DNA of 64,000 nt, taken from Xanthostigma xanthostigma. Its lineage: Eukaryota; Arthropoda; Insecta; Raphidioptera; Raphidiidae. The stretch spans positions 65,322,948 to 65,386,947 of the forward strand of contig OY754464.1 of the NCBI GenBank assembly GCA_963575645.1. Direction: 5' to 3'. Positions within the stretch are counted from its first letter, which is position 1. Each line of letters starts with the position of its first letter. Positions 2,700 through 51,010 of the stretch are shown one piece after another. The position numbers and the translations under genes were made by a program. The notes beneath the pieces are model-generated. The model saw nothing but the letters and a program-made list of their open reading frames with translations, was not told the DNA's origin and did not search any database.

Positions 2700-2870
2700 T
2701 ATTAATTACTTTTTATATTTTTAGAATAGTTCTGAAGAAGATCCACATCCAGATCGAAACGTTAATGTATTAATTACATTTTTGTTCTTAATATATTTGT
2801 CAAAAATATTGATCGATAATTTTATTTATTGAAGAGTTCTAATCAGACGTTAATCAAAGTTTGATAAACA
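2700..2870 (+). mobile_element. Penelope-like (family 1) single unit with hammerhead-like core
   Basis: From about 2732 the sequence reads CTGAAGA, then GATCC, a short loop, AGATC, then GAAACGTT. It continues through the family hallmarks TTGTCAAAAA, GATCGATAATTTTATTTA and CAGACGTTAATCAAAG. The same unit is found at 31440, 40074, 47150, 48082 and 50866. Stem II of the hammerhead-like core has one mismatch here. Assignment to Penelope-like elements is inferred from this core and from the 13-15 bp target duplications of sister copies. 2246-2700 holds nothing I recognise apart from AT-rich DNA. Confidence 0.5.
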
Positions 2871-2891
2871 AAGTATAAACATTACAATTCA

Positions 2892-3124
2892 ATAACAGTA
2901 AAATAGCTACAGTTTGCTACAACTGTTAAGAAACACACATTGTTACAATACAATATTAGAAAAAATAATTTTTAAACACGGTCACCGTCGGGATTCTAAT
3001 TCACTATCGCGGCGGAATGAATCCCGACCGTGACAATGTTTAAAAATATTTTTTTTTAATATTGCATTGTAACAATGGGTGTTTCGTCCCAATTTGTAGC
3101 AAACTGCAGCTTTCCCACTGTTAA
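2892..3124. mobile_element. Palindromic tRNA-like MITE (copy 1)
   Basis: Two arms of about 110 bp are inverted around 3008. Each arm runs from TAGC.ACAGTTTGCTAC through AAACAC.CATTGTTACAAT to GTCACCGTCGGGAT. The centre holds the remnant of a tRNA-like sequence best preserved at 20649-20720. Sister copies are 18758-19022, 20554-21000 and partial 39317-39452. Arms here differ by several substitutions and small indels, so this is an older copy than the one at 18758. Confidence 0.7.
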
Positions 3125-3129
3125 TAATT

Positions 3130-3158
3130 GCACATACCGCTGAACTAGCGATATGTGC
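3130..3158. repeat. GC-rich hairpin GCACATACCGCT
   Basis: GCACATACCGCT, a 5-nt loop, then AGCGATATGTGC: a 12-bp stem with one mismatch. The same hairpin with a perfect stem occurs at 44239-44267, and both are followed by TTTATT. It may be the terminal hairpin of a repeat family. Confidence 0.5.
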
Positions 3159-3898
3159 TTTATTTAGTTTTACGAACTATACCGTAGTAAACATTTACTA
3201 ATTACAATTTACTTTGAACAAATAATTCGGCAGTTTAAGCGACTACTGAGGTAAAACAACACGTCATATTCAATAGTAACAGAAATCCTTAGCGCGGTGG
3301 CAGAAAATTAAGTTACAATGGCGGAGGTGCCGGTCGATACCCGTTTCTTCCACCACAACCACACATTTGTGAACAATCGCGTCTCCCTCATACAATTCTC
3401 AACAATATGGAACAAGTTTCATTCAAATTGGTACTACAGTTTCTGAAATAATACACATTCCTTATCGTCAAACTATTTAAATTCTGGAAAACACGGAAAT
3501 TTTTAACAAACTCTAATCAGTGATTAAACAGCGCTCTTAAACTTCGTTATTTACAGTGACCAAGCATATATTTGGAGCTAATGGCCTTGCCGCTGCAAAT
3601 TTAAAAAAAATCTTGTTTTAAATCAGTTAAAATAAGAGCTCGCAAACACAAAACTTTCTAAACATCTTTAGGTTATTTAGAACTATTTTCAATTATTATT
3701 GCAAATAACATAGATACAATCATTTTTCGGATCAGAATCCAGGAAGTGGGGGCTTGTAACCGAGGAGCTATAGAAACGTCATATTATAAACACCGGCTTT
3801 GCTACACGTTCGGCTAGGCTATTCTCACGTCCAGAGGATTGTTTGTATAAAAGGACTTTTTCTGTTTATCCTTTCTATAGTCTAAACTTTGAACTTAC
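3159..3898. other. Presumed intron, no further feature seen
   Basis: AT-rich sequence immediately downstream (minus strand) of the alkaline phosphatase exon, starting with its GTAAGT donor. I see no second exon, no TIR pair and no RNA gene here. If the gene is intact this is intron. Confidence 0.5.
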
Positions 3899-4106
3899 CG
3901 AGTAAGTAGTCAACTTGTCTAGGATTGACCTCGTCCATTTGTCCTTTGTTCCAGACGTATTCAGCCCGGAGACCGCGTCGCTTTTTGTCTCGCACCCAGT
4001 CGTCTATCATGTTTCGGCCGTCGAGCCGGCGCCCCTCCTCGCTTGTCAGCTCCGGATCTCGAGCCACTTTTGGCAGCCAGTGACGCCGTCCACCTCCCAA
4101 CAGCAC
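3899..4106 (-). CDS. ALP: Alkaline phosphatase, internal exon (partial gene)
   Basis: This exon encodes about 69 residues beginning VLLGGGRRHWLP and ending QVDYLLG. In alkaline phosphatases this corresponds to the conserved block after the nucleophile region: a GGGR(R/K) turn, the R-LDG-(N/D) stretch (here RRLDGRN), an aromatic-W-N motif (YVWNKGQ) and a VDYLLG(L)F segment. Family members are metal-dependent phosphomonoesterases; insect forms are usually GPI-anchored at the midgut brush border. On the minus strand a pyrimidine-rich TTCTGTTTCTAG acceptor precedes GTGCTGTTGG, and the exon ends at G|GTAAGTTC, a consensus donor. Length 208 bp, intact frame, GC content well above its surroundings. 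The first codon is GTG within the exon, not a start. No flanking ALP exon was found in the window, so introns are long or this is a displaced fragment. A retained single-exon relic cannot be excluded. Confidence 0.85.
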
Positions 4107-5650
4107 CTAGAAACAGAACACAAAACGATTTAGCAAAAAAAAAATTCATTTCATAAAGTGTATATTGTCATTCGGTTTGAGGACTTATCTCTGACTGAAT
4201 TAAATCATATATCAATATAGGAAAGTTGAATGAAACGTTTTCTTTCTTTCGGATTAAACATTAATATTAAGATATCAAATTTCAATTACACACACAGAAG
4301 ATAAGGTCATGATATCATATATATTAATACGTTAAGGTTAAGATGTTTGCCTCCCTTTTTTGATAAAAAAACACACAATTTCTCCACATAAATTATATAT
4401 CATTTTACAGATAATTGCTTGCTCTACAGACATCGACAACTAAAAAATTTATTATTGCTTTTGTTTTTGTAAATTAATTAATTAACAGCAACGCTGAACA
4501 ACGTCTGCCATTTGACGGCTTTAATTTTGAAACAACGTCAACACTTCGATCTGTCATCTGACCTTCATATTGTAAATACTGCATACTGGCATCTGACGGC
4601 TTTAATTTTGAAACAGCGAGCAGCGCTGAACAACGTCACAGCAATGCTGCATGATGCCATCTGACGGCCTAGCTCAACGCTTTTGCTACTTGCGCCTCTA
4701 TATGACAATTTTAGTAAAATATTTCTTTGATCTGTCATCTGGGCTTCATATTGTAATACAACAAAAAGAAGAACGTTATAAGCAGTGTGCAAAATTAGAA
4801 ACTAATTGAATACCTGCAATCATATTTAAAAAATAATTTTGTAAAGTGATAATTATTATACTTATTTAGTGCGAATAATTCGCACAGGTCACACTAGTAC
4901 AAAATATATATAGCAATAGTTACACACATTTTTACAGTTACAATGCAATATGAAAAAAAGTCAGAACTCAAACCCGAAACTTCCACTATCACGGTGAATG
5001 AGTTATCATACCCAAACAATTTCTTATATTGCATTATAACTGTCAAAATGCGTGGTTTATACACAACAATAGCAAACTATGTGCTGTATGTATATCATTA
5101 TTCAGGTTTGTATAATCAAATATTATACCCTTGAATTAAATTTAAATACAATAACATTCAAAGGAAATGGCAACTGAAATGAGATATTCACTAAGAATTA
5201 AATTCCTTTACTTATTTTATGCATCAATTTTCCTTTCGGAAATGATGTACTAAATTCTCTGCGCATGAAATATGTTCACGGATAAATATTTTTTTTTTTT
5301 TAATTTTCGCTAGGGGAAACGTAACACATGATTTTACAATTCGCAGTTGGAAAACTCATTGTTCAAAGGGATTATTGACAATGTAAAAATCGTCGAAATT
5401 TAATCTACCTTTTCTCTGGTAGCCTGTATTACAAGTGAAAAAAAAAACAAAACAGCCATTTCAAATGTAAAATAAGATTAATGGTCAATTGTTCTAGCTC
5501 ACCAATGATTCAGTTTTTTCCTAATATTAAAAATCGGGTACAAACGCATGATAACAAAACATTTGATTTCAACATTACAGTGGTTTCAGGAACATTGGAA
5601 AAATATTGTAAAAAATTCGCGTCTTTTTACTCCGGTCAAAATTAACAATA
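4107..5650. other. Presumed intron with an internal duplication
   Basis: Sequence upstream of the ALP exon. A unit containing TGACGGCTTTAATTTTGAAA and a trailing CATCTG.(C/G)CTTCATATTGTAA occurs twice, at about 4486-4576 and 4590-4757, with CGCTGAACAACGTC also duplicated. This is a diverged local duplication. The remainder (4800-5650) is AT-rich; I see nothing more in it. Confidence 0.4.
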
Positions 5651-5654
5651 AAGT

Positions 5655-6365
5655 AGTGGTAGGTTTACAATAATTTGCATAGAGCTGAAAATTGGCACAG
5701 GTCTTAGGTACACTATTAATAATGAAATATCAAAAGTCCCTACCGATCCTACATCTGCTAAAAAAAATATTTAAGGTCAAAGGTTTTTAAGTATCGGTTT
5801 TTTGCACTTTTCTCGTAAACGGTAAATGTTATCTAAAAATAGGTCAGACAAAAGTTGTAGATCATGCAATTGTCTACAAGAACTGCTCTTATACTTTTTT
5901 CCTACGAATCACCATTATTTTGAAATGCTGATTTCATACATCGGAAATACTAATATGCAAATTTTTATTTAACGTTCAGTACGTACATAGTCATTTTGGT
6001 CCCATATCTCAGGAGTAGTGATTAGTAGGAAAAAAATATAAGGACAGTTTTTGTAAACAATTGCATGATCTACAACTTTTATCTGACCTATTTTTAGATA
6101 ACATTTACCGTTTACGAGAAACGTGCAAAAAACCGATACATTTGACTTTTGACCTTGAATTAATTGTAAAAAAGCATTCTACCAGACTGGGAATAATACT
6201 ATTAGGCGATGCACAAAAGATCTTCTAGGTCGCAGTGTTTGTGAGATATACAATTGTCTTATCACACCAAATAAATCTAAATCTGAATAAATTGTGAAAC
6301 AAATGTAGGATCGGTAGGGATACTTAACACCTGTATCAATTTTCAGCTCTATGCGAACTATAGTA
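5655..6365. mobile_element. Large imperfect inverted-repeat element
   Basis: The left arm (about 5655-5910) holds TAGAGCTGAAAATTG, CCTACCGATCCTACAT, GCAC.TTTCTCGTAAACGG and TTGTAGATCATGCAATTG in order. The right arm (about 6010-6365) contains the same blocks inverted, ending CAATTTTCAGCTCTATGC. The right arm carries about 120 extra bases near 6180-6300. No coding sequence. 6366-6620 shows nothing assignable. Confidence 0.65.
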
Positions 6366-6619
6366 AATTGAGATCTATATTTTGACTTAACTATTTTTGT
6401 TCTTGCTCGAAAACTTCAACGTGAATGATTAAATTACGCAGCTAACGTCGAAAGTACATGATTAAGTAAATAACGAGAAGCATAACCCGAAGGCGGTGCT
6501 TTTTATGTGCAGGTTGCCAAAGGATTCGTGATCTTAGTTCCAAGTAAAAGATGAAATTGTATTGCTTTTCTATAAACGTATGTTATCAATTAATAAATAT
6601 TTACGGTTTTGTTTTAATA

Positions 6620-7145
6620 TAAAATATTTTTAACAAAAAAATTGAACCGACTTCAAACATGCACTAAAAAGTAAAAAATAATAATTATTGTTATTTTTGG
6701 AGTCGGTGTCACATCAGAATTCGAAAGTAGCAATTTAAATGTTGCATGTCTCTAGTTCTCGGAATAGATTTCATTTTGGTTGACACCGACTCCAAAAATA
6801 ACAATAATTATTATTTTTTACTTTTTAGTGCATGTTTTGAAATCGGTTCAATTTTTTTGTTAAAAATATTTTATTTTTCTCTTTTTAGTGTTAGATAAAG
6901 TATTGCAATGGGTAGGCCAAGTATGCGTGCCTTTGAAATTTGAGAGTTTCCCCCGATTTCTCCGGATTCCACCATCAGATCCTGACTTTGTTCCGATGGG
7001 ACCACCTTGGAAGTGCACTCTTTCGAATAAAAAAAAAAAATTTGAAAATCGGTCCATAATTGATGGAGAAATCGGTGAACATACATAAAAAAAATATATA
7101 TATACAGTCGAACATAGAACCTCCTCCTTTTTTGAAGTTAAAAAT
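6620..7145 (+). mobile_element. Palindrome-headed element with 'gagaacctcctcc' type tail
   Basis: Arms of about 90 bp (6625-6715 and 6780-6875) carry AAAAAAATTGAACCGACTTC, GCACTAAAAAGTAAAAAA and TTTTTGGAGTCGGTGTC inverted around about 6748. They are followed by a non-palindromic body and a tail ACAGTCGAACATAGAACC TCCTCC near 7105-7130. The same architecture, with a related tail, is at 56997-58080, and a tail fragment is at 37680-37760. I know this tail as a common lepidopteran repeat, from memory. Positions 7146-7544 contain no recognised feature. Confidence 0.6.
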
Positions 7146-7544
7146 ATGTTTTGCTATATTATAGCAAGCAAAATTTTAAAATGAAATAAAGCAAGTGCCT
7201 TGATAAGTAACCAGATAAAATGTCTTATTAAACTCGACATGTAAGAAATTTCCTGTGCTAGACAACCATTCCACATACTGGATGTTAAAGTTTCTAGATA
7301 TTCATCAAGCACCGCAATCCATTGTAGCCACGTAGAGATAACAATGATATCGCTCCAGTATGGCTGACTGAAAGAAAATAGTGATTTTAAATTTTACACT
7401 TTCCCGTCAACACAACTATTTCCTTTGTTACGTGAATTTTCATTTACTTTTATTAAATTGTACTCCCCAAAATGGTAGACGATTTCGGTACTTATTCAAA
7501 TTTAGTAACTTTACTTTAACGTATGTAATTAAATATAAGTAGTT

Positions 7545-7815
7545 TAAAAAAAAACTAAAAAACACGCTTTATATCGAACTAAAAAGTAAAAAATATTATT
7601 TTTTTAAAATAAGCTTAAAACAATAATGAATAAAAAAAATACAAGTATTATTGTGAAATAAGCGCTTTGTTCCACATTTTCATATATCGAACGCCCTACG
7701 CTTTTTTCACAATAATACTTATATTTTTTTTATTCATTATTGTTTTAAGCTTATTTTAAAAAAAATATTTTTTACTTTTTAGTTCGATATAAAGCGTTTT
7801 TTAGTTTTTTTAAAC
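7545..7815. mobile_element. Long palindrome, likely head of a tRNA-bearing element
   Basis: Arms of about 110 bp share AACACGCTTTATATCGAACT, TAAGCTTAAAACAATAATG and AGTATTATTGTGAAA, inverted around about 7680. The right side is followed by TTTTTAGTTCGAT again and then, 70 bp on, by a tRNA-Leu-like module. This layout parallels the composites at 40835 and 55492. Confidence 0.6.
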
Positions 7816-7886
7816 TATATTTATTTTCCCCTTTTTAGTTCGATTTATTGTCAAAAATTTGCCGAAGAAAAACAATTTTTTTTTTC

Positions 7887-7975
7887 GGCGTGGATGGGAT
7901 TAGAACCCACGACCCGTGATTCCGAGAGTTGACGTCAGCGAAGACCCGTGCCTTAGACCGCTCGGCTAACCACTG
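7887..7975 (-). tRNA. tRNA-Leu-like sequence (probably a SINE or element module)
   Basis: On the minus strand an A box TTAGCCGAGCGGTCTAAGGC and a B box GGGTTCTAATCCC are well preserved, 89 nt overall with room for a long variable arm, as in Leu and Ser tRNAs. The T stem pairs (GTGGG with CCCAT, one wobble) but the acceptor stem pairs at only about four of seven positions. This looks like a tRNA-derived pol III module inside a repeat rather than a functional tRNA gene. Confidence 0.45.
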
Positions 7976-8046
7976 TAGTTACAGTGCTGGCGTATTATAC
8001 TACAGTAATAAACCACTTGCTGTAGTCCAAACGAAGGTTACAAACA

Positions 8047-8075
8047 AACATACATACATACATACATACATACAA
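8047..8075 (+). repeat. (ACAT)n microsatellite
   Basis: About seven tandem copies of CATA/ACAT, next to the tRNA-Leu-like element. Confidence 0.9.
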
Positions 8076-10024
8076 ACTGACAAGTGAAGTTATATAAAGC
8101 GTGTAAAAAAAGTTCTCAAAAACGTTTTTTTGTAAGTACTCGTGAAACACCTGTATAATGAAACGTTTGTACATCTTCTTACTCTGTTTAAATAAGACAT
8201 ACTTTTTCTAGTGTTAAATGCAATGAAACACTTCAAAATTGACAATTTAATAATTATACCTATCGTTTCTTTGCCATCCATTTTTTTCATATAATGAAAT
8301 ACCTGCCGTCAGATAATCTCGGTTTATTTACGGAACATTTAGCAAACTAGTTGAGTGAAAACTTGAAGATAAAATTCTGTGGCATAAAAGCAAAGTCGTG
8401 TATGCCGAATTTTGGTAATTTTTTATCGGCCTACTGTATTGGGGCAAGAATTTTAAGAAATGTGCCTGCAAAACTAAATGCCAATCAAATAAACATGCTT
8501 GTCGAAAAAATATTATATTGTTTAATTCCAAATGTCTTAACATGTAGGTACAAATAAATATAACAAACATTCGAGCGTTACCTATTTAAAGTTTTCCTAT
8601 AGTAGCAGCTAGTCAATTTATATATGGCGTAACTGCACCTTAAGCTTATATGAATTTAATATTTGAGCTAAGTGGGATTTTCCAAAAAAAATTCCAGAAA
8701 ATCTTAAATGTCAAAAAAGTAATTTTTTAGTAAATTTTTTATAGGACATATTTGAACTTTCCATATCTTCTTTTATTAGTCAATTTCTGCACCATTTAAA
8801 TAAAAACTACAGGTTGTAGTTCTAACTTTGTAATCTAGAAGAATAAAATTATGTTTGATTCTGTTTTACTTAAGGTTTATCTTATAGATTAATTTGCAAC
8901 TTATAACAAGTCAATAAATCCTATTTCATAAAAAAGACTACTCACAAAACATTTCAGCTCAATCGCAAACCGGAAAGTGGGTCAAATTTAACTTGAAAGA
9001 TTTGATTTTAGACAAGATTTGATTATAGGCAAACAGACACCGGACATGTGAAACTAAATAAAAGCTTGTAAAAACGAATCACCCATTTCTCTTGTTATTT
9101 GATAAACAAAGTAAGAGGTAGTTGTAGAGGCCAAACGATGGCACCACTGTAAGTACTGGCTGCTTCAGTTATAAAGGGAATTCCCCTCATATGTAAACAG
9201 CACTAGATTATTGTTTCTTTTTTTGCTGCAAGGGGAAAACTCAAAAGGGCATCATATCCAGAGTTGATAAAAATTCTCCAGTTTTGTTTACTTGTAGCCT
9301 CTAGTGGCCGAGAGTATAATTTTATAATACCTTATTAATTTAATGGCATAGAAAATTTTCGGCAAATTTTCCAGAAAATTTTCCGAAAAACCCACAACTC
9401 GCTAGACGTAACATAATAATTAAATTATCACACTTAGACTTAAAACATGGTAGGCGAATTTAAAGTACATATAGGTATAGTATTTGATTATTCATTACCC
9501 CTAGAAAATCACTAATTGTAACAACTGAATTGGTATGGTATAAAAAAATGTATTGATTAAACAAAAAACTTGACTAGTGCTGACATAAAAGCATAAAATA
9601 AGATTCCAGTATGACAAATATTTAGATAAAAAGAATTTTAGGGCACTAGCAAAATCTCACCAAACGTACTTTTCAGTTTTCATACTGGAAGCTTGTTTAG
9701 TACTTTCGTGTTAGCAGTTCAGAGAATCAAATCGACATTATCAGTGACATAAGTGACTTTACCTTGATACCACAAAATTCATTCGATTCGCCTAAGTTTC
9801 ATAAAGAGAATGCTCTCAATTTTCTTTAGACATATTGACATATTTTTCTTATTTTTTAAAGGACATTATTGGTACAAAATAATATTATCTAGTTTCATTT
9901 CTGCGGTACGTTATATAACAGCTATTGTCGTCTTTATCAGCGTTTATTGGAAAATATAACTTAAAGCGTATCTTCAACAGATTACCTACATATCACAAGT
10001 GACAGTATCCATACAAAATCTATA
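8076..10024. other. AT-rich unique-looking stretch, nothing assignable
   Basis: Reading frames are short and lack codon structure. I saw no TIR pair, tRNA, LINE or LTR signature. Probably old decayed repeat or intron. Confidence 0.4.
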
Positions 10025-18346: not shown

Positions 18347-18757
18347 TCGCCTGATAAAATAATAATGGCCACCACATAGATCATAATACCTAACCTATAA
18401 ACGTGGAGTATTATATCTACAGTGCTCTTGAGAATTTTTACCTATATTTGTTGTTTATTAACCTTTTCTGAAGTATAGGTAATAAGTTGTAAAACATTCA
18501 AGTTAGTGGAAGTTTGTGTGCAACTGGGTAAGGATAAAACATTATTATTTTGTAAGTGTTTTTTTGACGTTTACACTAACGCCATCGGTCGGATTTTTGG
18601 ATGAACGTCAAAATATTCAACAAAAAGAGCTAGTAGTATAGTGTAGGGTATACTATATATTTATTCTTTAACTAAATTTTCTACCTGATAGTTTGCTTGG
18701 CCAATTGAAAGTAAATTTTATATGTGAATATTCATACGATAAGGACGCATAACCACC

Positions 18758-19022
18758 AATTAAGATACAGGTGTAGCCACCGTTCGCTACATTGTTAAGA
18801 AACACCCATTGTTACATTGCATATTATTAGAAAAATTTATTTCTCAAACAATGTCACCATCGGGATACGAACCCCGAATCTTTCCACTATTAGTGGAAAG
18901 ATTCGGGGTTCGTATCCCGATGGTGACATTGTTTGAGAAATAAATTTTTCTAATAATATGCAATGTAACAATGGGTGTTTCTTAACAATGTAGCGAACGG
19001 TGGCTACACCTGTATCTTAATT
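18758..19022. mobile_element. Perfect 265-bp palindrome, tRNA-like MITE (copy 2)
   Basis: Two 132-bp arms are exactly inverted around a single T at 18890; I read both arms base by base and found no mismatch. Each arm contains the sequence of the family at 2892 and 20554: GCTACATTGTTAAGAAACAC, CCATTGTTACATTG and the tRNA-like 3' half GGTTCGTATCCCGATGGTGAC. An arm identity of 100 percent means recent formation, ongoing arm-to-arm conversion, or an assembly fold-back. Confidence 0.85.
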
Positions 19023-19750
19023 AGTAAATTTTATTCTAACGAATAAATTTGTTCCAAGATTAGTAACTTTTATCTTTAATAGTGTTCGATGAATATGGGC
19101 TTAAGTAAATTTTAAATCGTAGATAGTAGTTGTGCTATTTTAAAACCGAAGTTAAGAGGATTATTATTAGCATCATTACGTACACATTTCTCAAGGACAG
19201 GGTCCCACTTTACAGATAAACTAACAAAGTAATTCTGGAATTTTAGTCCCGCGAGGTTATTCCGGGATTAATGGATCGCCCTAACGAAAGTGAGAGGCAA
19301 TCATAAAAGAGGAAAGGTTGTTTTCTTCTCTTGTAGTTAGCTAATTCAAGTGAGTGAGTTAAAGCACAAGTAGAGACTTGTGCTTTGAATCTGTCTCAAG
19401 TGGCGGTATAAAACAGGAGACTGAAACCCGCGAGAACCAACAGCTCCGAGATACATCACCATAACTGGGGCGGAGTCACTGGCGAGCTACAGACTTAAAT
19501 ATTAACGTTACACCATTTCTGCAGAATTCTAAGGGCTCTGCCTCACCCGCCTTGCAGTCTCGGTTGGGCTGTCAGTATCGCCACGCCAAACACATCTTGC
19601 TGACAATTGAATTGCGTTGGTTGATCTGCCAATAAAATACACAGAGTTCGTACGCGTCACTCACTCGGCTGCCAGACCTATTTTGGTCTCTCCTCTCAAG
19701 GCACAATCCTCCCAAATTTGATTTTTCTTGCGAATTAATTTTTCTTTTTT
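19023..19750. other. No recognised feature
   Basis: Somewhat more GC-rich (19240-19700) than the surroundings, but no frame, TIR or RNA gene was recognised. Confidence 0.35.
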
Positions 19751-28189: not shown

Positions 28190-28415
28190 TGAAGGGAAAG
28201 TTTGGTTGAGGAACAATTTAAATTTACCGATGTTTTACTCGTGACCAACGTTTGGAAAAATTTACTATCATCTTCAGGGCCTCAGGCTACTTGAAGGTTG
28301 GTAAATTGTGCTAGTTTTAAATACATGGTCAACTTTCTTTAGTAACCCTTAGAAAGATCATGTATTTTTAAGGTTAGTACAATACACCGCGAGCCCGAGG
28401 CCCTGAAGATGATTA
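28190..28415. mobile_element. Penelope-like (family 2), decayed copy
   Basis: GTTTGGTTGAGGAACAA, GACCAACGTTTGG and ATCATCTTCAGGGCC match the family-2 unit at 46451. A second, inverted CCCTGAAGATGAT lies at 28401. On the minus strand the hammerhead-like core reads CTGAAGA...CAAA, so the conserved GAAA is mutated. Confidence 0.45.
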
Positions 28416-31439: not shown

Positions 31440-31617
31440 TTTCAAATAAATAAAATTGTCGACCAATTTTTTTCAGAATATATATTGACAAAAAATAATA
31501 TAAAAATATAAATATAAAAATATTTATATTATTTTTTGTCAATATATAGTCTGAAAAAAATTGGTCGACAATTTTATTTATTTGAAGAGTTTCTATTCAG
31601 ACGTTAATCAAAAATTT
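31440..31617. mobile_element. Penelope-like (family 1) palindromic copy with 15-bp TSD
   Basis: AAATAAATAAAATTGTCGAC, CCAATTTTTTTCAGA and ATTGACAAAAAATAATATAA are inverted around about 31510. AGATATAACTATATT (31425-31439) and AGATATAGGTATATT (31618-31632) flank the unit, a 15-bp target duplication with two mismatches. The hammerhead-like part is missing from this short copy. 31042-31424 holds nothing else recognised. Confidence 0.6.
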
Positions 31618-32185: not shown

Positions 32186-32766
32186 CGTTGCCTTTTACCA
32201 TTCCAACCCACAAGTGGGGAATGGTACTAGTTTAGGTCGAAAATCACTTTTCAAAAATTTTACAATATCTTTCCGTTTTGAGGTCCCCCGAATTCAAAAA
32301 ACATATTTTTGGAAAAACTCTGTGCGTCTGTTAGTCTGTGAACACGATACAGGTCATACCTACGGATGAGCGGATTGAAACAAAATTTTGAGAGAATGTT
32401 TGGTATGCAAATATGAAGAGCCCTATTGTTTTTGGGGAAAATCGGCGCATGCGCAGAAGAGATATATGCTAAAACGGTATTTTTTATTAAGATGAAGGAA
32501 GGTTTTGGTTGAGGATCATAAAATAAGCTTTACCAGTGTTTCGCTAGTGGCCAACGTTTCGAAAAATAAATAAATAAATTTTTCGAAACGTTGGCCACTA
32601 GCGAAACACTGGTAAAGCTTATTTTATGATCCTCAACCAAAACCTTTCTTCATCTTAATATTCTATTGGATCAACACTACTTTATACTGAAGGTATTTTT
32701 TATATAATAATAGTATACTTTTCATAACGGCTTATTATTCTATTTATTTTTTCAAGAAAGTTTTGT
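32186..32766 (+). mobile_element. 'gaggtcccccgaatcc' family, interrupted copy
   Basis: Starts CCATTCCAACCCACAAGTGG, continues GGTCGAAAATCACTTTTC, GAGGTCCCCCGAATTC, ATATGAAGAGCCCTATTG and GGCGCATGCGCAGAAG, and resumes after an insertion with ATAATAGTATACTTTTCATA. Sister copies: 35078-35440 (minus), 51570-52640, with fragments 13010, 24530 and 43608. Class unknown; possibly Helitron-related. Confidence 0.6.
32488..32691. mobile_element. Penelope-like (family 2) palindrome with 12-bp TSD
   Basis: GGTATTTTTTAT flanks the insertion exactly on both sides (32476-32487 and 32692-32703). Inside, GGTTGAGGATCATAAAATAA, GCTTTACCAGTGTTTCGCTA and GTGGCCAACGTTTCGAAAAA are inverted around about 32573, followed by TCTATTGGATCAACACTAC and TACTGAA. 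The hammerhead-like CTGA part is deleted here. It interrupts the 32186 element. Confidence 0.7.
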
Positions 32767-38576: not shown

Positions 38577-39136
38577 GTGAAATCTTAAAAAAAAAACTTC
38601 GGAGAAGTAAAAACTTCGTTCTGTGCTAAATTCAAAAACTTGAGGCGACTGAATCTTAAGATTATAACTTAAAAAAAAAGAATTTCGAGGCAGACAAGAA
38701 ATTGAAATCAAGCTCGAAATTCTGTGCGTAAGACGTCGAAAAAAAATGAATTTCGAGGCAGACAAGGAATTGAAATCCAACCTTGAAATTCTGTGCTTAT
38801 AAAAACTACAAGAGCAACAGCAAAAAAAAGTGCACAGACGGCGTTTTTTTAGTGATAACTAAAGGAGTTATGCGAACACCGTCTTTGCATTTTTTTTGCT
38901 GTTGCTCTTGTAGCTTTTATAAGCACAGAATTTCAAGGTTGGATTTCAATTCCTTGTCTGCCTCGAAATTCATTTTTTTTCGACGTCTTACGCACAGAAT
39001 TTCGAGCTTGATTTCAATTTCTTGTCTGCCTCGAAATTCTTTTTTTTTAAGTTATAATCTTAAGATTCAGTCGCCTCAAGTTTTTGAATTTAGCACAGAA
39101 CGAAGTTTTTACTTCTCCGAAGTTTTTTTTTTAAGA
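38577..39136. repeat. 560-bp near-perfect palindrome
   Basis: Arms of about 250 bp (38577-38830 and 38889-39136) differ at only a handful of positions. Each arm holds AAACTTCGGAGAAGTAAAAA, TTCGAGGCAGACAAG twice (two related subunits of about 85 bp) and TACAAGAGCAACAGCAAAAA. The 60-bp loop carries GACGGCG...CACCGTC, a further inverted pair. Because of the symmetry the same roughly 66-residue peptide can be read from both strands, so these frames are not evidence of a gene. Confidence 0.85.
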
Positions 39137-39139
39137 TAA

Positions 39140-39929: not shown

Positions 39930-40073
39930 CCATCGAGTTTTTTAATGAAATTTGAATTTTGATAACATAATGTATTAATAAAGAAAAATTGATTTGGTTG
40001 ATTTTCAATTTCTTGGCACAGCTATTTTTAATAAGAAATTAAAAGTGGTTAATTTTGCTTTATTTAAATCTTT

Positions 40074-40200
40074 GATTAGTACTCTTCAATAAATAAAATT
40101 ATCGACCAATTTTTCAGACAATTATATTGACAAAAATACATAAGTATATAATTCAATAAAACGTTTCAGTCCGGATTTGGATCTTCTTCAGAATTGATCT
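40074..40200 (-). mobile_element. Penelope-like (family 1) single unit
   Basis: On plus: CTCTTCAATAAATAAAATTA, CGACCAATTTTTCAGAC, TTGACAAAAATAC, ACGTTTCAGTCCGG, GATCTTCTTCAG. On the minus strand the hammerhead-like core CTGAAGA, GATCC...GGACT, GAAACG lies at 40161-40192, stem II slightly damaged. Confidence 0.5.
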
Positions 40201-40834
40201 AAAAAATATAAAAATTAATTAGTAATTAGTTGGTTTAAGATTTTTTTAATTTCGATATTAAAAAACTTGAACCGAATTTTGTTGGAAACTAATTACTTAT
40301 TGATACATTAAATAATGGTTCATTATTATGTTCAATTTTACGAGATTTTTTTAAAACTTTTTCTTTTGCTTGTTTCGTAAATATTTTGAGAATACTAAAG
40401 TCAGCTGTTTTTTTTTTTTCTGAAATAATTGAATCGTCAAAGAAAATAAGCTAGCTGATAAGTCATGAAAACGCCATATAAACAAATAATAATTAATAAA
40501 ATTGGATTTTTTTTAGAAATCGATGGTTATCGGACACTCGGTACATCTTGCGTCATCCTCTGCTGCGGGTTTCTCTTGCATACACTTATATGTGCCTATT
40601 TTAGTGTTTATTAGATTTTTTTATCTTTGCCTCGTTACATAAACACATTACACCTCAAGAAATGGCAAATGATTTTTTTACGACTAATAAAGGCTTTCTG
40701 ACTTTAAAAAGGAAAATGCAGTATTTTTTTGTTTTATTTTTTTAATGTTTTTATACGAATAAAAAAAAGAGAAATGCCCTATATCTGAAAGTTCTCGGTG
40801 AGACCGACAATTTGACATCATTTTTACCACGTTT
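40201..40834. other. No recognised feature
   Basis: AT-rich with T-runs, nothing assignable. Confidence 0.4.
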
Positions 40835-42313: not shown

Positions 42314-43040
42314 TTGGGTGACTAAATTACTAAGTGAGCGACTAAATTACTAAGTGAGCGACTAGAATGCCTTCGGTAATTTTGAAGCAGATATCTTCTT
42401 TTGTTTTTACTTTTTATTTTTTTTTTCACTTTGAGACTACAACTTAAAACTCACACTTTCATGAAGATTGAAAACCACCGCTTTTTTTGATAAAGGGGTA
42501 TGCGAATTGTCTCGCAGTGAAACGCGATGGGGCAAAGGTGGAGTTTTTAAAAAAATAGTTCCGGGGTGAACGATAAACGGGTATGCAAACTGTAATTCAG
42601 GGGTGAACGATAAAGGGGTATGCGAATTGTCTCGCAGTGAAACGGGAAGGGGCAAATGTGGAGTTTTTTAAAAAACAATTACGGGGTGAACGATAACGGG
42701 GTATGCGAATTTAATTGTTAGTTGTTTGAATAGAACTGCGTTTTCTAAAAAATGTATATTTAATTGACAGTCAATTAAATATATATTTTTTAGAAAACGC
42801 AGTTCTATTCAAACAATTAACTATTAACAAAATGCCGCTCAGAATAAATAAATCATTTGCCAAATTTTGAAAAAAATGCAGGACGTAACGTTGACACTCA
42901 AACAAATATTAGGTCGCTCAAATACTATGAAGTTTCCCATTTTGTATTTTAAGTAACTAAAATGGATGTTTGTAAGTTGCTGTTTTGTTGATTTCTCGTC
43001 ACGCGCAGTCAGTCGCTCACTTAGTAATACAGTAACCCAA
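42314..43040. mobile_element. MITE with 120-bp tandem repeat
   Basis: Ends TTGGGTGACTAAATTACTAA and, inverted, TTGGGTTACTGTATTACTAA, with AAGTGAGCGAC repeated at the left (two 20-bp units, 42321-42360) and once inverted at the right. Inside, 42489-42719 is a tandem repeat with exact 120-bp period (GATAAAGGGGTATGCGAATT starts at 42489 and 42609), each half carrying GGGGTGAACGATAA. 42712-42830 is a palindrome with arms of about 55 bp. No credible coding. Confidence 0.65.
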
Positions 43041-44250: not shown

Positions 44251-44267
44251 ACTAGCGGTATGTGCTT
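44239..44267. repeat. Perfect hairpin GCACATACCGCT
   Basis: GCACATACCGCT, AAACT loop, AGCGGTATGTGC, then TTTATT. Same hairpin at 3130-3158. Confidence 0.75.
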
Positions 44268-44844: not shown

Positions 44845-44849
44845 ATTGA

Positions 44850-46319
44850 TATTATTTTTCTTTTTTTTCTTTTTATTTTGTTTTATTTTATTCCACTTGA
44901 TATTAATTATATATTATATTATGTATAGTTCTTAATTTTTTTTATTTTTGCAAACTTAAAAAAAAAATTGTTATTTTTTTATCATACAGTGGAAAACTTG
45001 CGGGATGTGCACTTTTGGTTTTGCCAACTATTGTTTTTTACCATAGGTACCAGATTCAATTTTTAAGCGCCGTGACAGCTTTTACAAGGGCCGTGTCAAA
45101 ACACCACCCTAATTTTTTTCTGCAAGAAGGTTTGACATCTATTTTCTGCATAAAATTTGGTCTGTCAGCGAAAAATTTTTTTTTACTATGACAGACAAAA
45201 ATTTATAACAAATGAAGTCTGACAAATTTATTAACAAAAATTGTCAGCCAGACAAGTTGTATTAGATAGAAGAGATCTTAAGCTTTATTTAAAAAAAAAA
45301 ATCAAGGAGGTGTTATGAAATGTATTTTCATAAAAAAAATAATTTATAACAAATGAAGTCTGACAAATTTATTAACAAAATTTGTCAGCCCGATCAATTT
45401 TTTCAAAAATGGTACATTATTTACTACAAACTGTATAAATTTCAAGCAGGTGTTTTGGAAAGTAAAATCATGTTTTTTTTAAATACAAAAATTCATAAAA
45501 AAAACAATTAACAAATTTTTACTAGTCTGGGAGCTTGGACTATAAAGTAACATCTTTCTCACTACTCATCTTGTCGAAACCGAATACCAAAGGCGACTGA
45601 GAGAAAAATGTATGTGGACGTATGCCGATTTCGAAGTGGTCATTCGGCTTTTTCACTCGGTATTACCGATCGGCATAGTGAGGACATACCTTAAGATTTT
45701 GGTTGTTCTGCAGCTCCGCAGTGCTCATAGAGGAACCGCCACTGTGCTGCGCTATTCGTGGATGAAGACGCATTAGAAACAGTCTTTGACCGTAATGTTA
45801 ATAAATGGTAATATTATTGAAATGTCCAAAGTTGTTCTACTACAACCCTGTGTACACGTCCACACATGACTGAACGTAACATTATAGGCATTTCAGACTC
45901 TATTATTATATTCAAATTATATATTACGAATTTCATTTTCCACCAAATTATATAAAAATCCTCACTTTTATTGCTTTCATCGGAATAACAGCTTTACTTG
46001 AAAAAAATACAATAACTGAAGAGGTCGGGTAGCGGTATTTTAGCATTTAAAAGAAAGTCGATTCAGTTTCCAGTAGATGTGACGAAGGACTTTTATTTGG
46101 TTGAAAAACTGTACTACTCGATCATAATTTTCCTCAAAAATTTACACTGTTCAGTATCAAATATCATAACTAATAACGATGTTTAAATTTAATTATATCT
46201 TACATAAAAAATTTTATATTTTTATTGTGAGTTTATATAAAAATTGAATTAATATTAATGTGTTCTCAAAATATTTAAAATTGTATTAACGCATACTAAT
46301 GTTCATGTAGGTATATTGT
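44850..46319. other. Unassigned with one local duplication
   Basis: 45201-45258 and 45342-45400 are two copies of ATTTATAACAAATGAAGTCT, GACAAATTTATTAACAAAA, TTGTCAGCC, 141 bp apart. Nothing else recognised. Confidence 0.45.
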
Positions 46320-46450
46320 TGAAGCCCTGAAGATGAAAATAAATTTTTCGAAACGTTGGCTACTAGCGTAACATTGGTAAAGCTTATTTCTTGATCTTCA
46401 ACCAAACCTTCCTTCATCGTGACAATCGGTTGGATCGCAACACTAGTATA
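46320..46450 (+). mobile_element. Penelope-like (family 2) single unit with hammerhead-like core
   Basis: CTGAAGA, GAAAATAAATTTTTC (stem II) and GAAACG at 46327-46354, then TTGGCTACTAGCGTAAC, GGTAAAGCTTATTTC, TCAACCAAACCTTCCTTCAT, GGTTGGATCGCAACACTAG. ACG...CGTA after GAAA could form a short stem III ending at the expected cleavage triplet, but stem I is not evident. Confidence 0.55.
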
Positions 46451-46841
46451 TACTGAAGAAGATTTATTTGGTTGAGGAACAATAGAAATAAGCTTTACCA
46501 AAGTATCGCTTGTGGCCAACGTTTCGACAATTATATTTTCATTCTCAGGACCTATGAACATGTATAGTATTTAATTAGATTAATATTATTATGATTTCTA
46601 AATTACAAATAAATGCATTACAAATCAGATAATATGTTATAGGTAATGTTTAGTTTATCTGATTTCTAATGCATTTATTTGTAATTTAGAAATCATAATA
46701 ATATTACTTAATGTAATTAAATACTATACATGTTCATAGGCCCTGAGGATGAAAATATAATTTTCGAAACGTTGGCAACAAGCGATACTTTGGTAAAACT
46801 TATTTCTATTGTTCCTCAACCAAATAAATCTTCTTCAATAC
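46451..46841. mobile_element. Penelope-like (family 2) inverted dimer
   Basis: Two units inverted around about 46645, arms about 190 bp. The right arm holds an intact core at 46743-46770: CTGAGGA, GAAAATATAATTTTC, GAAACG. The left arm's core is damaged (CTGAGAA, GTCGAAA). TTGGTTGAGGAACAATAGAA and its complement lie near the outer ends. It directly follows the single unit 46320-46450 in the opposite sense. Confidence 0.65.
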
Positions 46842-47077
46842 ATATTTTGGAACAAAACTTCTACTAATACTGAAGACTATTTAATATAAGAACATAAAAT
46901 AATAAATTGAAAATATGAATTGTTGCTAGGCTTAAATAGCCCTGTCTGTTGGTGGCCTTAAAAAATACAATTTCGACTAAAACCATCAAGAAAAATCTCC
47001 ATAAAGATCAATAACAATATAATAATCATGTTTGGGGTTTGAGAAGAGCTCTGATCATTCCGAAGCAGTAATTTTGT
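46842..47077. other. No recognised feature
   Basis: Short AT-rich stretch between two elements. Confidence 0.4.
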
Positions 47078-47510
47078 GACGGTCGTTTTGGTCCCGCCGT
47101 TTTAGTAGCGGCCGTTTTGGTCCCTGTTATTAGATTAAACAAATAAAATTACTGACCAATATTTCAGACAATATGTTGACAAAAATTAAATAATATAATA
47201 ATTTCAAACAATTAACGTTTCAATCCGGATTTGGATCTTCTACAGAATTGAGCTAAAAAATAAGAATATAATAAATTAAAAGTAAAAAAACTTTTTTTTA
47301 AATGCGCTAAAAAGAATAAATCCGAAGAAGATCTAAATGCGGATCGAAACGTTAATTGTTTTAATCATATTGTTTAATTTTTGTCAATATATTGTCTGAA
47401 AAATTGGCCGGTAATTTGATTTGTCATAATCTAATAATACCGACTAAAAACGGCCGGGACCAAACCGCCGGAACCAAAACGGCGGGACCAAAACGGCCGT
47501 ACCAAAACTT
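47078..47510. mobile_element. MITE with CCGTTTTGGTCCC subrepeats, interrupted
   Basis: Left end GACGGTCGTTTTGGTCCC, CCGTTTTAGTAGCGGCCG, TTTTGGTCCCTGTTATTAG; the right end is the inverse with several CCGGGACCAAA / GGCGGGACCAAAACGGCCG units. Between them (about 47150-47400) sits a palindromic Penelope-like family-1 copy with two damaged hammerhead-like cores (CTGTAGA at 47220-47255 minus; CCGAAGA at 47326 plus). Without that insertion the MITE would be about 180 bp. Confidence 0.65.
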
Positions 47511-47969
47511 CATGTACCAAATCATTCATACCTTAATGTTTTCTAATTTTGAATTCAACGATTTTAATTTAGGTACGCATAGTATAATTACAATATGAAA
47601 ACACGTACATATTATATTAAAACATGACACTGTTTAAAATGAAAACAAAACTAAATTAATACATTTTTACCGCAAACAAGATGTATTTATATTTTTATAA
47701 AATTATACCTGTTTATATTATAATATATTATACACGATAATTTATTTAATTAATCTGTTCCGTTGAACCAGTGCTAAATAGAAGGCGGCGGCAGTGCATT
47801 GTTGTCAGAGCCGCGTAGACAACAATGCCTGCATTGTTGTCAAAGTGCTCGCATAGTTGTAACCGCATACACAACAATGCGTGCATTGTTACGCGTATTG
47901 TTACACTCTTTGTCATCGGAACCATAGAAGAATGCCGAAGAATATTCCACGATGCCGCTGAAGAACTTA

Positions 47970-47976
47970 TATAAAC
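47970..47976 (+). promoter_or_regulatory. TATA box upstream of CAGT-rich start
   Basis: TATATAA about 30 bp before the CAGTCAGTCAG block, suggestive of an LTR core promoter with an initiator. Confidence 0.4.
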
Positions 47977-48081
47977 AACGCTAGCGTAGAAGGCAATAGG
48001 CAGTCAGTCAGAAGTCAGTGTCAGTAACAATGAATAGTGCGCGACATTAATAAATTAATGTTCTAAATAAATATAGAAATA

Positions 48082-49018
48082 TTCAAATAAATAAAATTGT
48101 CGACCAATTTTTCTCAGACCAATATATTGACAAAAAATAAAAAATAACAAATCAATATAACACAAGATGACGTTTCGATCCGGATTTGGATCTTCTTCAG
48201 AAATATCTAAAGAATTTCTGAAGAATATCCAAATCCGGATCGAAACGTCATCTTGTGTTACATTGATTTGTTATTTTTTATTGACGTGATAACGTCTTAT
48301 AAATTGATGAATCACCAATCTTATAAATTGATAAAACACCGGCTGCATGCACGAAAAATTGTAACGTTCGTAACGCGTAACGCGTAACGTTCCGCCTGAC
48401 CCTGTGCGTGCTTTTTGCTAATTTCTCGCTCAATTTAAATCAGATCGGTTTGAAACCAGTCTTAAACGAAAGAGGAGAACATTTTACATAGATTTCGTAT
48501 AACAGAATTTGCCTAAACAGTTTTTTTATACAAATTTATATAGAAAAATAGCTGTATAAATGCAATGTTGTCTAATGCATGGCGCGACGCGGTCGGTCGT
48601 CTTTGTTTGCCGTACATGGAAATTAGAAGAGAACGTATGTCTTGTCTTAACATGAAAACGGCTGCATTTCTAATGTTTAATTCAATTTTTTGACATTAGT
48701 ATTTTGTGAAATGCAACGCCTTCTAAGTTAAGTATTGGAATAACTAATTATTATTAGAACATAATACTTTGACAGTTGCAAACGTCACTTTTGACATTTC
48801 TTATCATTCCGACACCAAGGATAAGCGGATTGAAACCAAATTTTGGGAGGTTTAGGTTATGTATTACGGAATACGTTATCACGTAAAACTATCGTCCGTA
48901 GACCGACTTTACAGACAACCAATTTTTGTTTGTCAATAGGTATATTGGTCTGAGAAAAATTGGTCGACAATTTTATTTATTTGAAGAGTTCTATTCAGAC
49001 GTTAATCAAAGATTTGCA
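48082..49018. mobile_element. Penelope-like (family 1) inverted dimer, 13-bp TSD, with nested insertion
   Basis: Flanked by exact AAATATAGAAATA on both sides (48069-48081, 49019-49031). Two units face each other around about 48210, each with an intact hammerhead-like core: CTGAAGA, GATCC...GGATC, GAAACGTC at 48171-48201 (minus) and CTGAAGA, ATATCC...GGATC, GAAACGTC at 48219-48248 (plus). The right arm is split by the 48283-48926 insertion and resumes with TTGTCAATAGGTATATTGGT. Confidence 0.75.
48283..48926 (+). mobile_element. GACGTGATAACG element (copy 1)
   Basis: Starts GACGTGATAACGTCTTATAA and ends GACTTTACAGACAACC(AATTTTT). It has ACGTGATAACGT at its start and the exact inverse ACGTTATCACGT about 40 bp before its end. 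Copy 2 (51858-52550) sits in a different host, so the boundaries are set by comparison. It contains AACGCGTAACG-type short tandem motifs near 48375. No coding sequence. Class unknown. Confidence 0.7.
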
Positions 49019-49127
49019 AAATATAGAAATACATAGACATCTGTGAGACATAAATATTCTGTGTACAATGTACAGTATAGTAGTTTAGTGTTATTATTGT
49101 TGTTTTAGAATTCGTTTGTTTTTAATC

Positions 49128-49315
49128 ATAATAATAATAATAATTCTTTATTAGGGTACGGACAAGCCAATATGGCTATCTCGTCCGCCCTCTACTAAAA
49201 ACAATACATTGGTGTAATATAATAGTTAAAAAAATTTAAAAATATCAATATAATTACATTAAGATGACAAAATAAAAATATAATCATATAACCAACTCCA
49301 CTGGTTTTCGTTATT
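49128..49315 (-). mobile_element. LINE/SINE 3' end fragment with (AAT)n tail
   Basis: On minus: ATAGCCATATTGGCTTGTCC, GTACCCTAATAAAGAATTA then (TTA)n. This ending followed by a simple-repeat tail is typical of non-LTR 3' ends. It separates two matching parts of the LTR-like unit. Confidence 0.5.
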
Positions 49316-49445
49316 TATTATTTCCTTTTTCATAACTATTAGAGAGGCACCTTTAGTTTCTTTTTCTTTTTGTTTGTTAACGTTTATTTTTGTAAATAAA
49401 TCTTTTCACCACCAAGTTCAGAACAGTTTTATCAGTTTTGTTACA

Positions 49446-50221
49446 ATACGGTCCACTATTTCATTATTGAAAAGTTATTCAACCAAAGTAACCTAAAATC
49501 AACATGATTTCAACCGGTTTGTGAATGGTGAACAATCTTTTACAAAACACTAAGCTCTATAAAAGAAATTGTATGTATGTAATTCCGTAACAAACATTTA
49601 TAAACAAAGACAAATATAAACTGTATCTCTATTTACTAATTAAATTCTTCCAGCTGAAATGCAAGAGCATTTTCAAGTTTTCAGCGGGTGCGTTCTTGGA
49701 GTTTTAAACAGCGTTCGAAATTGACATCGCTGAACGTTTGATTACACCTTCCACATAGTTTGTACAATTCGTTGAGCCTTTCTCGTACACAACAAGTACT
49801 TATCGATCGAGCAAAAAGATTGTATTTTATTAACGGCCACTTAATCTCAGAATCTTTAGTATTTGTTTCGCTAAAATACACACAACTGTAATATCGAAAA
49901 TTATTAATTACGAATCGATAACTAATATATCCACCGAAAATTCGAATACTCGCGTTATTTAATAACAATGAACGCAAATTTGTTTCGTATACACACGCCA
50001 TGACAACTTGCCCATATCTGTCAATAAAATAGTTTACTGTCGAATGCTGTTTCATCCATTTAAGTCTACAGAATGTGCGTATGTATGCATAAAGTTGTGT
50101 GCCTGGGTGTATTGATGCATGTCACATGTATTCAAATGTATTATATGGTGAGTGTGTATGGGGGGGGTGTCTATTTGTGTTTGATTGTCTGTATGGTAAC
50201 TATTTCGATGAATGCAGATAT
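49446..50221. other. Unassigned stretch around a minus-strand frame
   Basis: Contains the unrecognised frame 49681-50055 and a GGGGGGGTG tract at 50160. No repeat ends identified. Confidence 0.35.
49681..50055 (-). CDS. Unrecognised 124-codon frame
   Basis: Opens further upstream of the ATG (FCRLKW precedes it), so the start is not fixed. The product is Tyr/Asn/Cys-rich, with a C-terminal Cys cluster (CCVRERLNELYKLCGRCN) but no motif I can name. Unlike most frames here it does not overlap a recognised repeat. Either a host exon of unknown function or chance. Confidence 0.2.
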   Translation of the reverse strand: MKQHSTVNYFIDRYGQVVMACVYETNLRSLLLNNASIRIFGGYISYRFVINNFRYYSCVYFSETNTKDSEIKWPLIKYNLFARSISTCCVRERLNELYKLCGRCNQTFSDVNFERCLKLQERTR

Positions 50222-50808
50222 ATGAAAAAAAGCGCGTCGGACTCGCACACCGAGGGTTCCGTACAAACTTGTAGGTATGGAAATAGTTCGTCTATTACGG
50301 GACTCGAGTGACGAGTCTCGAAGATATTTCCTGCTCAGCCATTGAAAAACTGTTGTCCCTATACATCGATAAAGGTCGCGGCCAGTTTGCCAACTAGGCG
50401 TGTAATTGCAATGAGTTCAGATAGACTACAGAACTGTATCGTACATCGTGGCTATATCTAATAACCTATATGTCGTACCGTGTTGTATGCGAGAGTTTTC
50501 ATATTGTTCTATATAAACGCACCGGTAGCGGACACTTGTTTTGTATTAGAACTGTTACTGTGTACGTGCGTAGCACGTTGTTGAGGTTTAAAAACATTAT
50601 TTTTTTGTATTGTAACTACAAATTTACGGGTTTCGGATTTTTCCCTTTACTTGTGCTATAAGACATTGATTTTTGCCAAATTTCATGATTCTAGACCAAC
50701 GGGAAGTACCCTATAAGTTTTAATTCCCAAGAGTCTTGACAGACAGACGGACAACAAAGTGATCCTATAAGTGTTTCTTTTTTTCCTTTTGAGGTGCGGA
50801 ACCCTAAT
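50222..50808 (+). mobile_element. 'agggttccgtacctc' interspersed repeat (copy 2)
   Basis: GCGCGTCGGACTCGCACACC, GAGGGTTCCGTACAAACTTG ... CAGACAGACGGACAACAAAG, TTTTGAGGTGCGGAACCCTA. Same family as 19752-20178, longer at its 3' part. Confidence 0.6.
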
Positions 50809-50865
50809 AACATCAAAATAGACACCATATCTAAATTTTCAACATATAAAATTTACAAATCTTAG

Positions 50866-51010
50866 ATTAACGTCTGAATAGAACTTTTCAATTAAATAAA
50901 ATTATCGACCAATTTTTTCAGACTGTATATATTGACAAAAAATTATAAAAATATAATTCAAATAAATCAATAGATGACGTTTCGATCCGAATTTGGATCT
51001 TCTTCAGAAA
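50866..51010 (-). mobile_element. Penelope-like (family 1) single unit
   Basis: On plus: TTAGATTAACGTCTGAATAG, AAATAAAATTATCGACCAAT, ATTGACAAAAAATTATAAAA, GACGTTTCGATCC, GATCTTCTTCAG. On minus the core CTGAAGA, GATCC...GGATC, GAAACGTC at 50976-51007 is intact apart from one loop change. Confidence 0.55.

Follow-up and report, generated by a model that had tools for sequence, protein, structure and literature searches.

Palindromic families linked to Penelope-like elements

A window of 64 kb from the genome of the snakefly Xanthostigma xanthostigma (the whole stretch of 64,000 nt that was analysed, on contig OY754464.1, here C1) carries two families of palindromic sequences, family 1 and family 2, each with the core of a hammerhead ribozyme. 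With a probability of roughly 0.93, both are pseudo-long terminal repeat (pLTR) ends of Penelope-like retroelements (PLEs) carrying a hammerhead motif. An earlier note, made from the letters of the window, had suggested a Penelope-like origin and a search for reverse transcriptase (RT)/GIY-YIG frames beside longer copies. What the note observed was confirmed and its interpretation is supported. Such frames were found: in copies from the same genome (623 Mb in 28 contigs), the family-1 unit is joined to them at L091 and the family-2 unit at L094, L-numbers denoting loci fetched from this genome.

At L091, an 835-aa frame was flanked by direct repeats of 461 bp (99.3% identical) containing the family-1 unit and core. 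The order of parts was a 39-bp inverted arm, the end of an endonuclease, a pLTR with the family-1 unit, the 835-aa frame, and a second, near-identical pLTR; a 14-bp duplication was read by eye. Direct pLTRs also occurred as tandem copies at L077/L078. The L091 protein matched the PLE protein of L077 at 33% over 538 aa (E = 3e-67), with GIY-YIG covered by the alignment, and Pfam gave RVT_1 (E = 1.8e-11) and GIY-YIG above the cut-offs for L077 and RVT_1 (E = 3.6e-11) plus GIY-YIG for L071. In the window itself, 33 codons upstream of the core at 2732 (nt 2453–2551) corresponded to L091 residues 797–829 (88%, E = 1.2e-10, tblastn). Genome-wide, a 32-aa endonuclease piece gave 1806 first-look candidates, and those scored all matched (150/150).

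For family 2, an endonuclease-like C terminus was located between the arms of a palindrome (L093) and another adjoined the core at L092; both matched the L091 protein weakly (E = 0.019 and 0.001, respectively). A 54-aa piece of this endonuclease-like sequence, with 1389 candidates in the genome, led to L094, whose RT and endonuclease frames matched the L091 protein at 33% over 437 aa (E = 1.6e-67). These frames were broken by one stop and one frame change, and a family-2 core lay 352 bp downstream; RVT_1 reached 27.1 bits, below the cut-off of 29.6, and GIY-YIG had no direct Pfam match. As a separate observation, L093 also contained, at ~733–1620 between the palindrome arms, a fragment of a different retrotransposon with a YADD-type frame and an ATT-rich tail.

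No DNA transposase, the content that the earlier note had considered as contrary evidence, appeared in Pfam scans of the frames of L077, L091, L094, and L071. A profile of L077/L091/L094 searched against solved structures matched 11 retron, group II, and other RTs at E ≤ 0.01 and no telomerase, as judged from profile matches. Of 30 fetched GIY-YIG loci (37 matches in all), 22 contained a canonical core whose stem II had 4 bp or more; 16 of the 22 represent one young lineage (that of L077), and some loci overlap.

Hammerhead cores and their stems

The core, CTGANGA followed by a stem-II region and GAAA, was present at all seven places listed for the window; the 5′ bases of the minus-strand cores are at 40191, 48200, and 51007, and the core that had been placed at 48219 begins at 48218. 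That stem II pairs held for five of the seven, with pairs counted unbroken from the stem base: 5–6 bp at 46327, 46743, 48200(-), and 51007(-) and 4 bp at 2732, whereas 40191(-) had 2 bp and 48218 had 0 bp. The copies at 46327 and 46743 look complete and that at 2732 nearly so; 48200(-) and 51007(-) have a single stem-I pair, and 40191(-) and 48218 have stem-II mismatches. Elements at about 28190–28412, 31441–31617, 32488–32691, and 47137–47424 had been missing from the list.

Cores with stem II of at least 4 bp numbered five in the window, versus a mean of 0.06 and a maximum of 1 in 200 windows simulated with an order-1 Markov model. When a palindromic stem III and 3 bp or more in stem I were also required, three remained (2732, 46327, and 46743) versus 0 in 200. 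The earlier judgement that such pairing is hard to explain by chance is borne out for the compound motif; the bare heptamer CTGANGA was not significant (22 in the window, 15.5 expected, 7 of 100 shuffles equally high). Genome-wide, the loose pattern CTGANGA-N-RRNYY-loop-RRNYY-GAAACGTH gave 9398 matches versus 3 for the reversed control, an exact 39-mer of family 2 gave 775 copies versus 0 in the control, and family 1 yielded 2763 first-look candidates. The hammerhead core is real in both palindromic families.

Seven PLE-linked loci were compared (L077, L091, L094, L061, L067, L070, and L071), to which cores were assigned by nearness, ~190–700 nt past the endonuclease. Stem I and stem III had not been used in choosing them and served as independent tests. 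Stem I had 2–5 unbroken bp beside the core in all seven, as well as 3–4 bp at 2732, 46327, and 46743 in the window; its sum over the seven loci was 24 bp versus a permuted mean of 5.9, and among 5040 permutations the true pairing alone reached 24. The stretch from GAA to the cleavage base was self-complementary in all seven, being ACGU in five, ACUAGU in L071, and AUGUACAU in L077. A stretch of this kind cannot close on itself, which fits the reported dimeric mode of PLE hammerheads, and stem III could form only between two RNAs via the palindrome. The earlier note could not complete stems I and III convincingly; stem I is supplied by pairing beside the core, and stem III would be supplied by an intermolecular palindrome.

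MAFFT misaligned the family-1 rows in a first alignment (A1), and the covariation count and model R1 use only a five-row alignment (A2), in which 8 of 9 stem pairs were changed on both sides, with 0 of 500 shuffles as high. Stems I and II are held by pairing rather than sequence in the PLE loci and in the window copies 46327, 46743, and 2732. R1, a covariance model of five PLE-type hammerheads including window copies 46327 and 46743, found three family-1 copies in the window (E = 7e-5 to 6e-4; these E-values are rough) and, among PLE loci outside the model, L067 (E = 1.2e-4), L077 (0.0015), L091 (0.0095), and L071 (0.042). Monomer energy minima contained stems I and II in three cases (46327, L061, and L077). 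From core and stems, we infer that these elements may be capable of hammerhead self-cleavage.

Features of the window

The features assigned were as follows (nt, strand).

2453–2551, plus: PLE endonuclease remnant, 33 codons near the C terminus of a truncated copy (tblastn against the L091 frame)
2732–2763, plus: hammerhead core of family 1 with ACGU, four pairs in stem II, and three in stem I; cleavage predicted 3′ of 2763
2764–2862, plus: family-1 arm, from the predicted cut to the end of the tail
28190–28412, unstranded: decayed family-2 palindrome, limits approximate (R1, E = 1.1e-8); minus-strand core in 28235–28288 with CAAA replacing GAAA
31441–31617, unstranded: family-1 palindrome truncated ahead of the hammerhead, one arm tailed
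32488–32691, unstranded: family-2 palindrome truncated within stem II (R1 and sequence)
40066–40310, minus: single family-1 arm, inner limit approximate; core with 5′ base 40191 and broken stem II
46327–46357, plus: complete hammerhead of family 2a with ACGU, AGCC pairing with GGCU in stem I, and five pairs in stem II; cleavage predicted 3′ of 46357
46460–46866, unstranded: palindrome of family 2b, lying within the end of the 2a copy
46506–46559, minus: antisense arm of the 2b palindrome, mutated core CTGAGAA
46743–46773, plus: complete hammerhead of family 2b with ACGU, three pairs in stem I, and six in stem II; cleavage predicted 3′ of 46773
47137–47424, unstranded: decayed family-1 palindrome within a longer fold-back sequence (inverted-repeat scan, R1)
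48082–49018, unstranded: family-1 palindrome, left arm tail-less, right arm tailed and split by a foreign insertion
48169–48200, minus: left-arm hammerhead core (family 1) with five pairs in stem II and just one in stem I
48218–48249, plus: right-arm hammerhead core (family 1) with a single mutation interrupting stem II and one pair in stem I
50857–51012, minus: single tailed family-1 arm, core with 5′ base 51007, stem II 5 bp, stem I only 1 bp

The insertion interrupting the right arm of the palindrome at 48 kb is of ~645 bp (nt 48282–48926, limits by eye), with ACGTGATAACGT and ACGTTATCACGT near its ends forming a short inverted repeat. Around the decayed palindrome at 47 kb, inverted minisatellite-like arms (CGTTTTGGTCCC / GGGACCAAAACG; nt 47084–47508) were observed, as if a fold-back element were its carrier. 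Two near-perfect palindromes of other elements, at 38582–39137 and 18755–19025 (arms of 248 and 135 nt, respectively), contained no hammerhead core detectable with R1; tandem arrays were located at 57525–58012 (163-bp unit) and 42489–42706 (120-bp unit).

Anatomy of the palindromes

Family-1 copies had fixed outer ends and a variable inward reach. Each arm consisted of a variable inner truncation, then, if long enough, an outward-pointing hammerhead core, and then one of two outer ends, ...ATTTATTTGAA or, ~30 nt further with the tail, ...AATCTAAGATTT. Among the first 100 listed places per family, neighbouring cores within 2.5 kb diverged in 14 of 15 cases under the loose pattern, which sampled mainly family 1, and in 14 of 15 for family 2, as did 22 of 24 within 4 kb for a third family described below; none of the listed places of the three showed convergent neighbours.

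Target duplications were of about 13 bp. Flanks of at least 9 bp common to both sides were found in 11 of 22 two-armed family-1 elements (36 sequences examined), versus 2.6% of 462 mispaired flank controls, in which the maximum was 13; the other 11, nested and decayed copies included, had no clear duplication. The duplications of 12, 13, and 15 bp noted earlier in the window were recovered by eye, namely GGTATTTTTTAT at 32476–32487 and 32692–32703 (12 bp), AAATATAGAAATA at 48069–48081 and 49019–49031 (13 bp), and a 15-bp duplication with two mismatches at the palindrome at 31441–31617 (by eye). A further one of 10 bp, ATACTGAAGA, was read by eye at 46450–46459 and 46867–46876.

Exactly one arm was tailed in 25 of 28 family-1 pairs (one duplicate place dropped), none in three, and both in no pair. 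Most of these pairs had been retrieved by a tailed query; the ten retrieved otherwise gave one tail in eight and none in two.

Three sites deserve separate mention. At L078–L079 (C4:23145367–23148508), two 5′-truncated PLE copies lie head to head in a perfect, spacer-less palindrome of 3142 bp, which may be real or an effect of the assembly, and at C1:77219697 and C2:61685580 family-1 palindromes are centred on the stem-III ACGT, an arrangement that would suit snap-back priming at a self-complementary site.

A third family with a U3-A8 core

When the fetched sequences were scanned for paired changes at core positions 3 and 8, a third palindromic family (L008, L018, and L023) was found to carry TTGANAA together with full stems. 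The same core was found beside GIY-YIG frames at L062 and L063 and, decayed, at L066, while L065 carries TTTAGAA; no C3G/G8C or C3A/G8U change was found in that scan. When a 32-base family-3 pattern in which position 3 could be C or T and position 8 could be G or A was searched genome-wide, U3-A8 was present in 1158 of 1167 matches and is therefore the founder state rather than a product of decay. Family 3 is placed with PLEs from its core and its head-to-head, tailed anatomy, and not through a coding frame.

The variant was initially considered new, a reading dropped since, in the accessible part of their report, Perreault et al. 2011 (PMC3088659) already describe U3-A8 covarying for C3-G8 in natural hammerheads. 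The double core change is identical and preserves the 3-8 pair, but here U3-A8 is the founder state of an amplified palindromic family and also stands beside GIY-YIG (L062, L063, and partly L066). The core variant is known, and the addition made here is its amplification in PLE-like palindromes.

Proposed mechanism and junctions at the predicted cut

A two-sided target-primed mechanism of insertion is given about even odds. The PLE protein would cut both target strands in a staggered manner, and each side would prime reverse transcription of the PLE RNA, starting inside it at one of two sites per side. The outcome would be one tailed and one tail-less arm with their 5′ ends meeting head to head. 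Stem III would close by pairing of two RNA copies via ACGU, which tandem PLE transcripts would permit in cis; palindromic copies could dimerise only in trans, because their two cores are on opposite strands.

The hammerhead core starts ~100–150 nt upstream of the inferred RT start sites, and the predicted cuts in L091 (after 400 and 3206) are upstream of the tail, so that cleavage would detach the remaining template from the RT start sites. Such a position agrees with the ribozyme-independent insertion reported for Anolis and with the amplification of family 1 despite its weak stem I, and short arms ending at the cut would be predicted from it.

Whether ribozyme cleavage sets the template length, the cut RNA keeping just the ~70–100 nt from the cut to the RT start sites and run-off giving short palindrome arms, is quite doubtful; if true, head-to-head pairs would be a genomic record of dimeric hammerhead cleavage in vivo. 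In one subset of family 1, the core upstream of the cut was retained in 64 of the first 100 places, and the other 36 comprised 24 distinct upstream strings. Eight of the 24 broke exactly at the predicted cut and ten at the cut or one base on (p = 3e-4, uniform over 16 positions), with a pattern blind to breaks downstream of the cut and with strings that include one resembling an intact copy with an indel, one differing at the first base after the cut, and two that are the arms of a single amplified palindrome, a third being similar. In one amplified palindrome, both arms begin at the predicted cut. Speaking against cut-ended arms, a cruder boundary estimate on 80 arms, itself confounded by palindromes, gave no peak, and among 48 listed family-2 places with sequence about four looked truncated (by eye), at differing positions and without a peak.

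Alternative explanations

Palindromes with target duplications are typical of derivatives of DNA transposons, and further palindromes are present in the window, so that the elements might be miniature inverted-repeat transposable elements (MITEs) or fold-back DNA transposons with an incidental likeness to hammerheads. This is very improbable: the units run on into RT/GIY-YIG frames, as L091 and L094 already contradict it; the outer end stays constant, whereas inner truncation occurs at many different points; and the tail is usually on one side only. Rather unlikely is the idea that these are PLE remnants whose motif now serves in this genome as a hairpin for structure or protein binding and has no part in cleavage. 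It would suit the amplified family-1 form of the window, which is nearly without stem I, and the normal insertion of Anolis PLE hammerhead mutants (PMC11167929, accessible part). Against it stand the unpaired CTGANGA/GAAA core kept in 22 of the 30 GIY-YIG loci, the pairing of stem I, unused in selection, in all seven compared loci, and the joint difference at core positions 3 and 8 in the founder sequence of family 3 (U3-A8 for C3-G8 in 1158/1167).

A rival that concerns the mechanism only, not the identity of the elements, is snap-back of a single cDNA or self-priming of the antisense strand. It is possible, at somewhat short of even odds, since perfect head-to-head palindromes do occur (such as the spacer-less 3142 bp around L078/L079), two family-1 palindromes have the ACGT of stem III at their centre, and the Adineta paper prefers, in its accessible part, self-priming on an antisense template (PMC3846280). 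Simple snap-back would not, however, lead one to expect a short tail-less arm together with a longer tailed arm, as seen in several elements (L025, L027, and L030), nor does it suit the 39-bp arm in the ~3.3-kb element L091, and the Anolis enzyme extends both strands (PMC11167929, accessible part). Arm-to-arm identity was tried as a test of one versus two templates and rejected: a first version compared non-homologous sequence beyond the junction, and in a second, short spans in some places allowed an arm to align over its own centre, which confounded the comparison.

For the assignment of both families to hammerhead-carrying PLE ends, several points have to be set on the other side. Five of the seven PLE loci compared had been found by CTGANGA...GAAA with a stem II of at least 4 bp, L091 and L094 being kept for their family core, so that core and stem II are not independent tests there. 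The L061 core is doubtful, as the endonuclease type of that locus goes with another core in L063/L066 and the core may be a neighbour's. The L091 protein has no direct Pfam match to RT or GIY-YIG, and its domain assignment rests for this reason on likeness to L077. Unbroken stem I amounts to just 0–1 bp in the family-1 window copies at 40191, 48200, 48218, and 51007; amplification of family 1 with so weak a stem suggests that cleavage is not needed for spread. In the accessible part of PMC11167929, insertion of the Anolis PLE proceeded normally in vitro with a mutated hammerhead, and the ribozyme depended on protein. With isolated pieces of 50–60 nt, the double hammerhead was at the dimer energy minimum in 0 of 10 cases, and the family-3 palindrome in L023 appears two-tailed, contrary to a strict one-tail rule. 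Finally, in the Rfam search proposed in the earlier note, no hammerhead reached the gathering score anywhere in the window, and a threshold of E ≤ 10 in the 5.2 kb of 46000–51200 yielded none either, formally the outcome that the note had named as a refutation. The Rfam hammerhead models at E ≤ 10 also missed the cores of all five PLE coding loci tested; being blind to these, the no-hit test does not discriminate. Rfam matches to miRNAs and CRISPR repeats, below the gathering score, were rejected as hairpin or short-repeat look-alikes.

Relation to known elements and significance

Minimal type I hammerheads of PLEs that cleave as dimers were reportedly described by Cervera and de la Pena in 2014 and by Lunse, Weinberg and Breaker in 2017. 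The elements here resemble these in their core, short stem II, lack of an internal stem III, and thousands of dispersed copies; stem III is here a visible palindrome with three sequences of 4, 6, and 8 nt across lineages of one genome.

Statements on the following sources refer to their accessible parts. The dimeric mode of PLE hammerheads has been reviewed (PMC7761336). In Adineta vaga, Pen families show tails, inverted pLTRs, palindromic junctions, and duplications of 8–10 bp (PMC3846280). The present elements are like these PLEs in the RT-endonuclease frame, direct pLTRs, adjacent inverted pLTR, and optional tail of ~30 bp, and also in their short target duplications, head-to-head junctions, and solo-pLTR insertions. 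In the Anolis PLE (PAc), each of the two strands is cut and extended by the PLE protein, and the tail corresponds to the interval separating two RT start sites, with no strand difference seen in vitro (PMC11167929). As in PAc, the hammerhead here lies where pLTR and ORF meet, and two putative RT start sites flank the tail; the ATG start codon of PAc lies in stem II, as in family 2, whereas stem II of family 1 is without a start codon. Unlike the Adineta and Anolis PLEs, many copies here are short palindromes of two pLTR ends, and they are numerous (9398 loose core matches). Metazoan non-LTR retrozymes (PMC7229834) are likewise short and non-autonomous with a type I hammerhead, and they have been proposed to depend on PLE proteins (PMC7761336); retrozymes, however, are direct tandem repeats with hammerheads in the same orientation, whereas close neighbours here are mostly head to head (14/15, 14/15, and 22/24). 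In the monarch butterfly, a PLE that has both RT and GIY-YIG is among the dominant elements (PMC8848866). The repeats of the window look lepidopteran in character; no report of PLE hammerheads in Lepidoptera or butterflies was found in the open-licence library searched.

As PLE pLTR derivatives with minimal hammerheads, the elements are of a known kind and form no new class. What makes them interesting is how abundant they are, how diverse their lineages are in a single genome, how the palindromic stem III varies, and how the tails are distributed. Anonymous AT-rich palindromes of an animal genome could here be assigned to PLEs via a ribozyme core that the Rfam models missed. Several lineages with differing stems, together with the varied stem III and the U3-A8 family, constitute good natural material on whether PLE hammerheads act only as dimers, and the one-tail pattern connects genomic anatomy with the pair of RT start sites described in Anolis. 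Junctions at the predicted cut offer a cheap genomic test of what the ribozyme does in PLEs.

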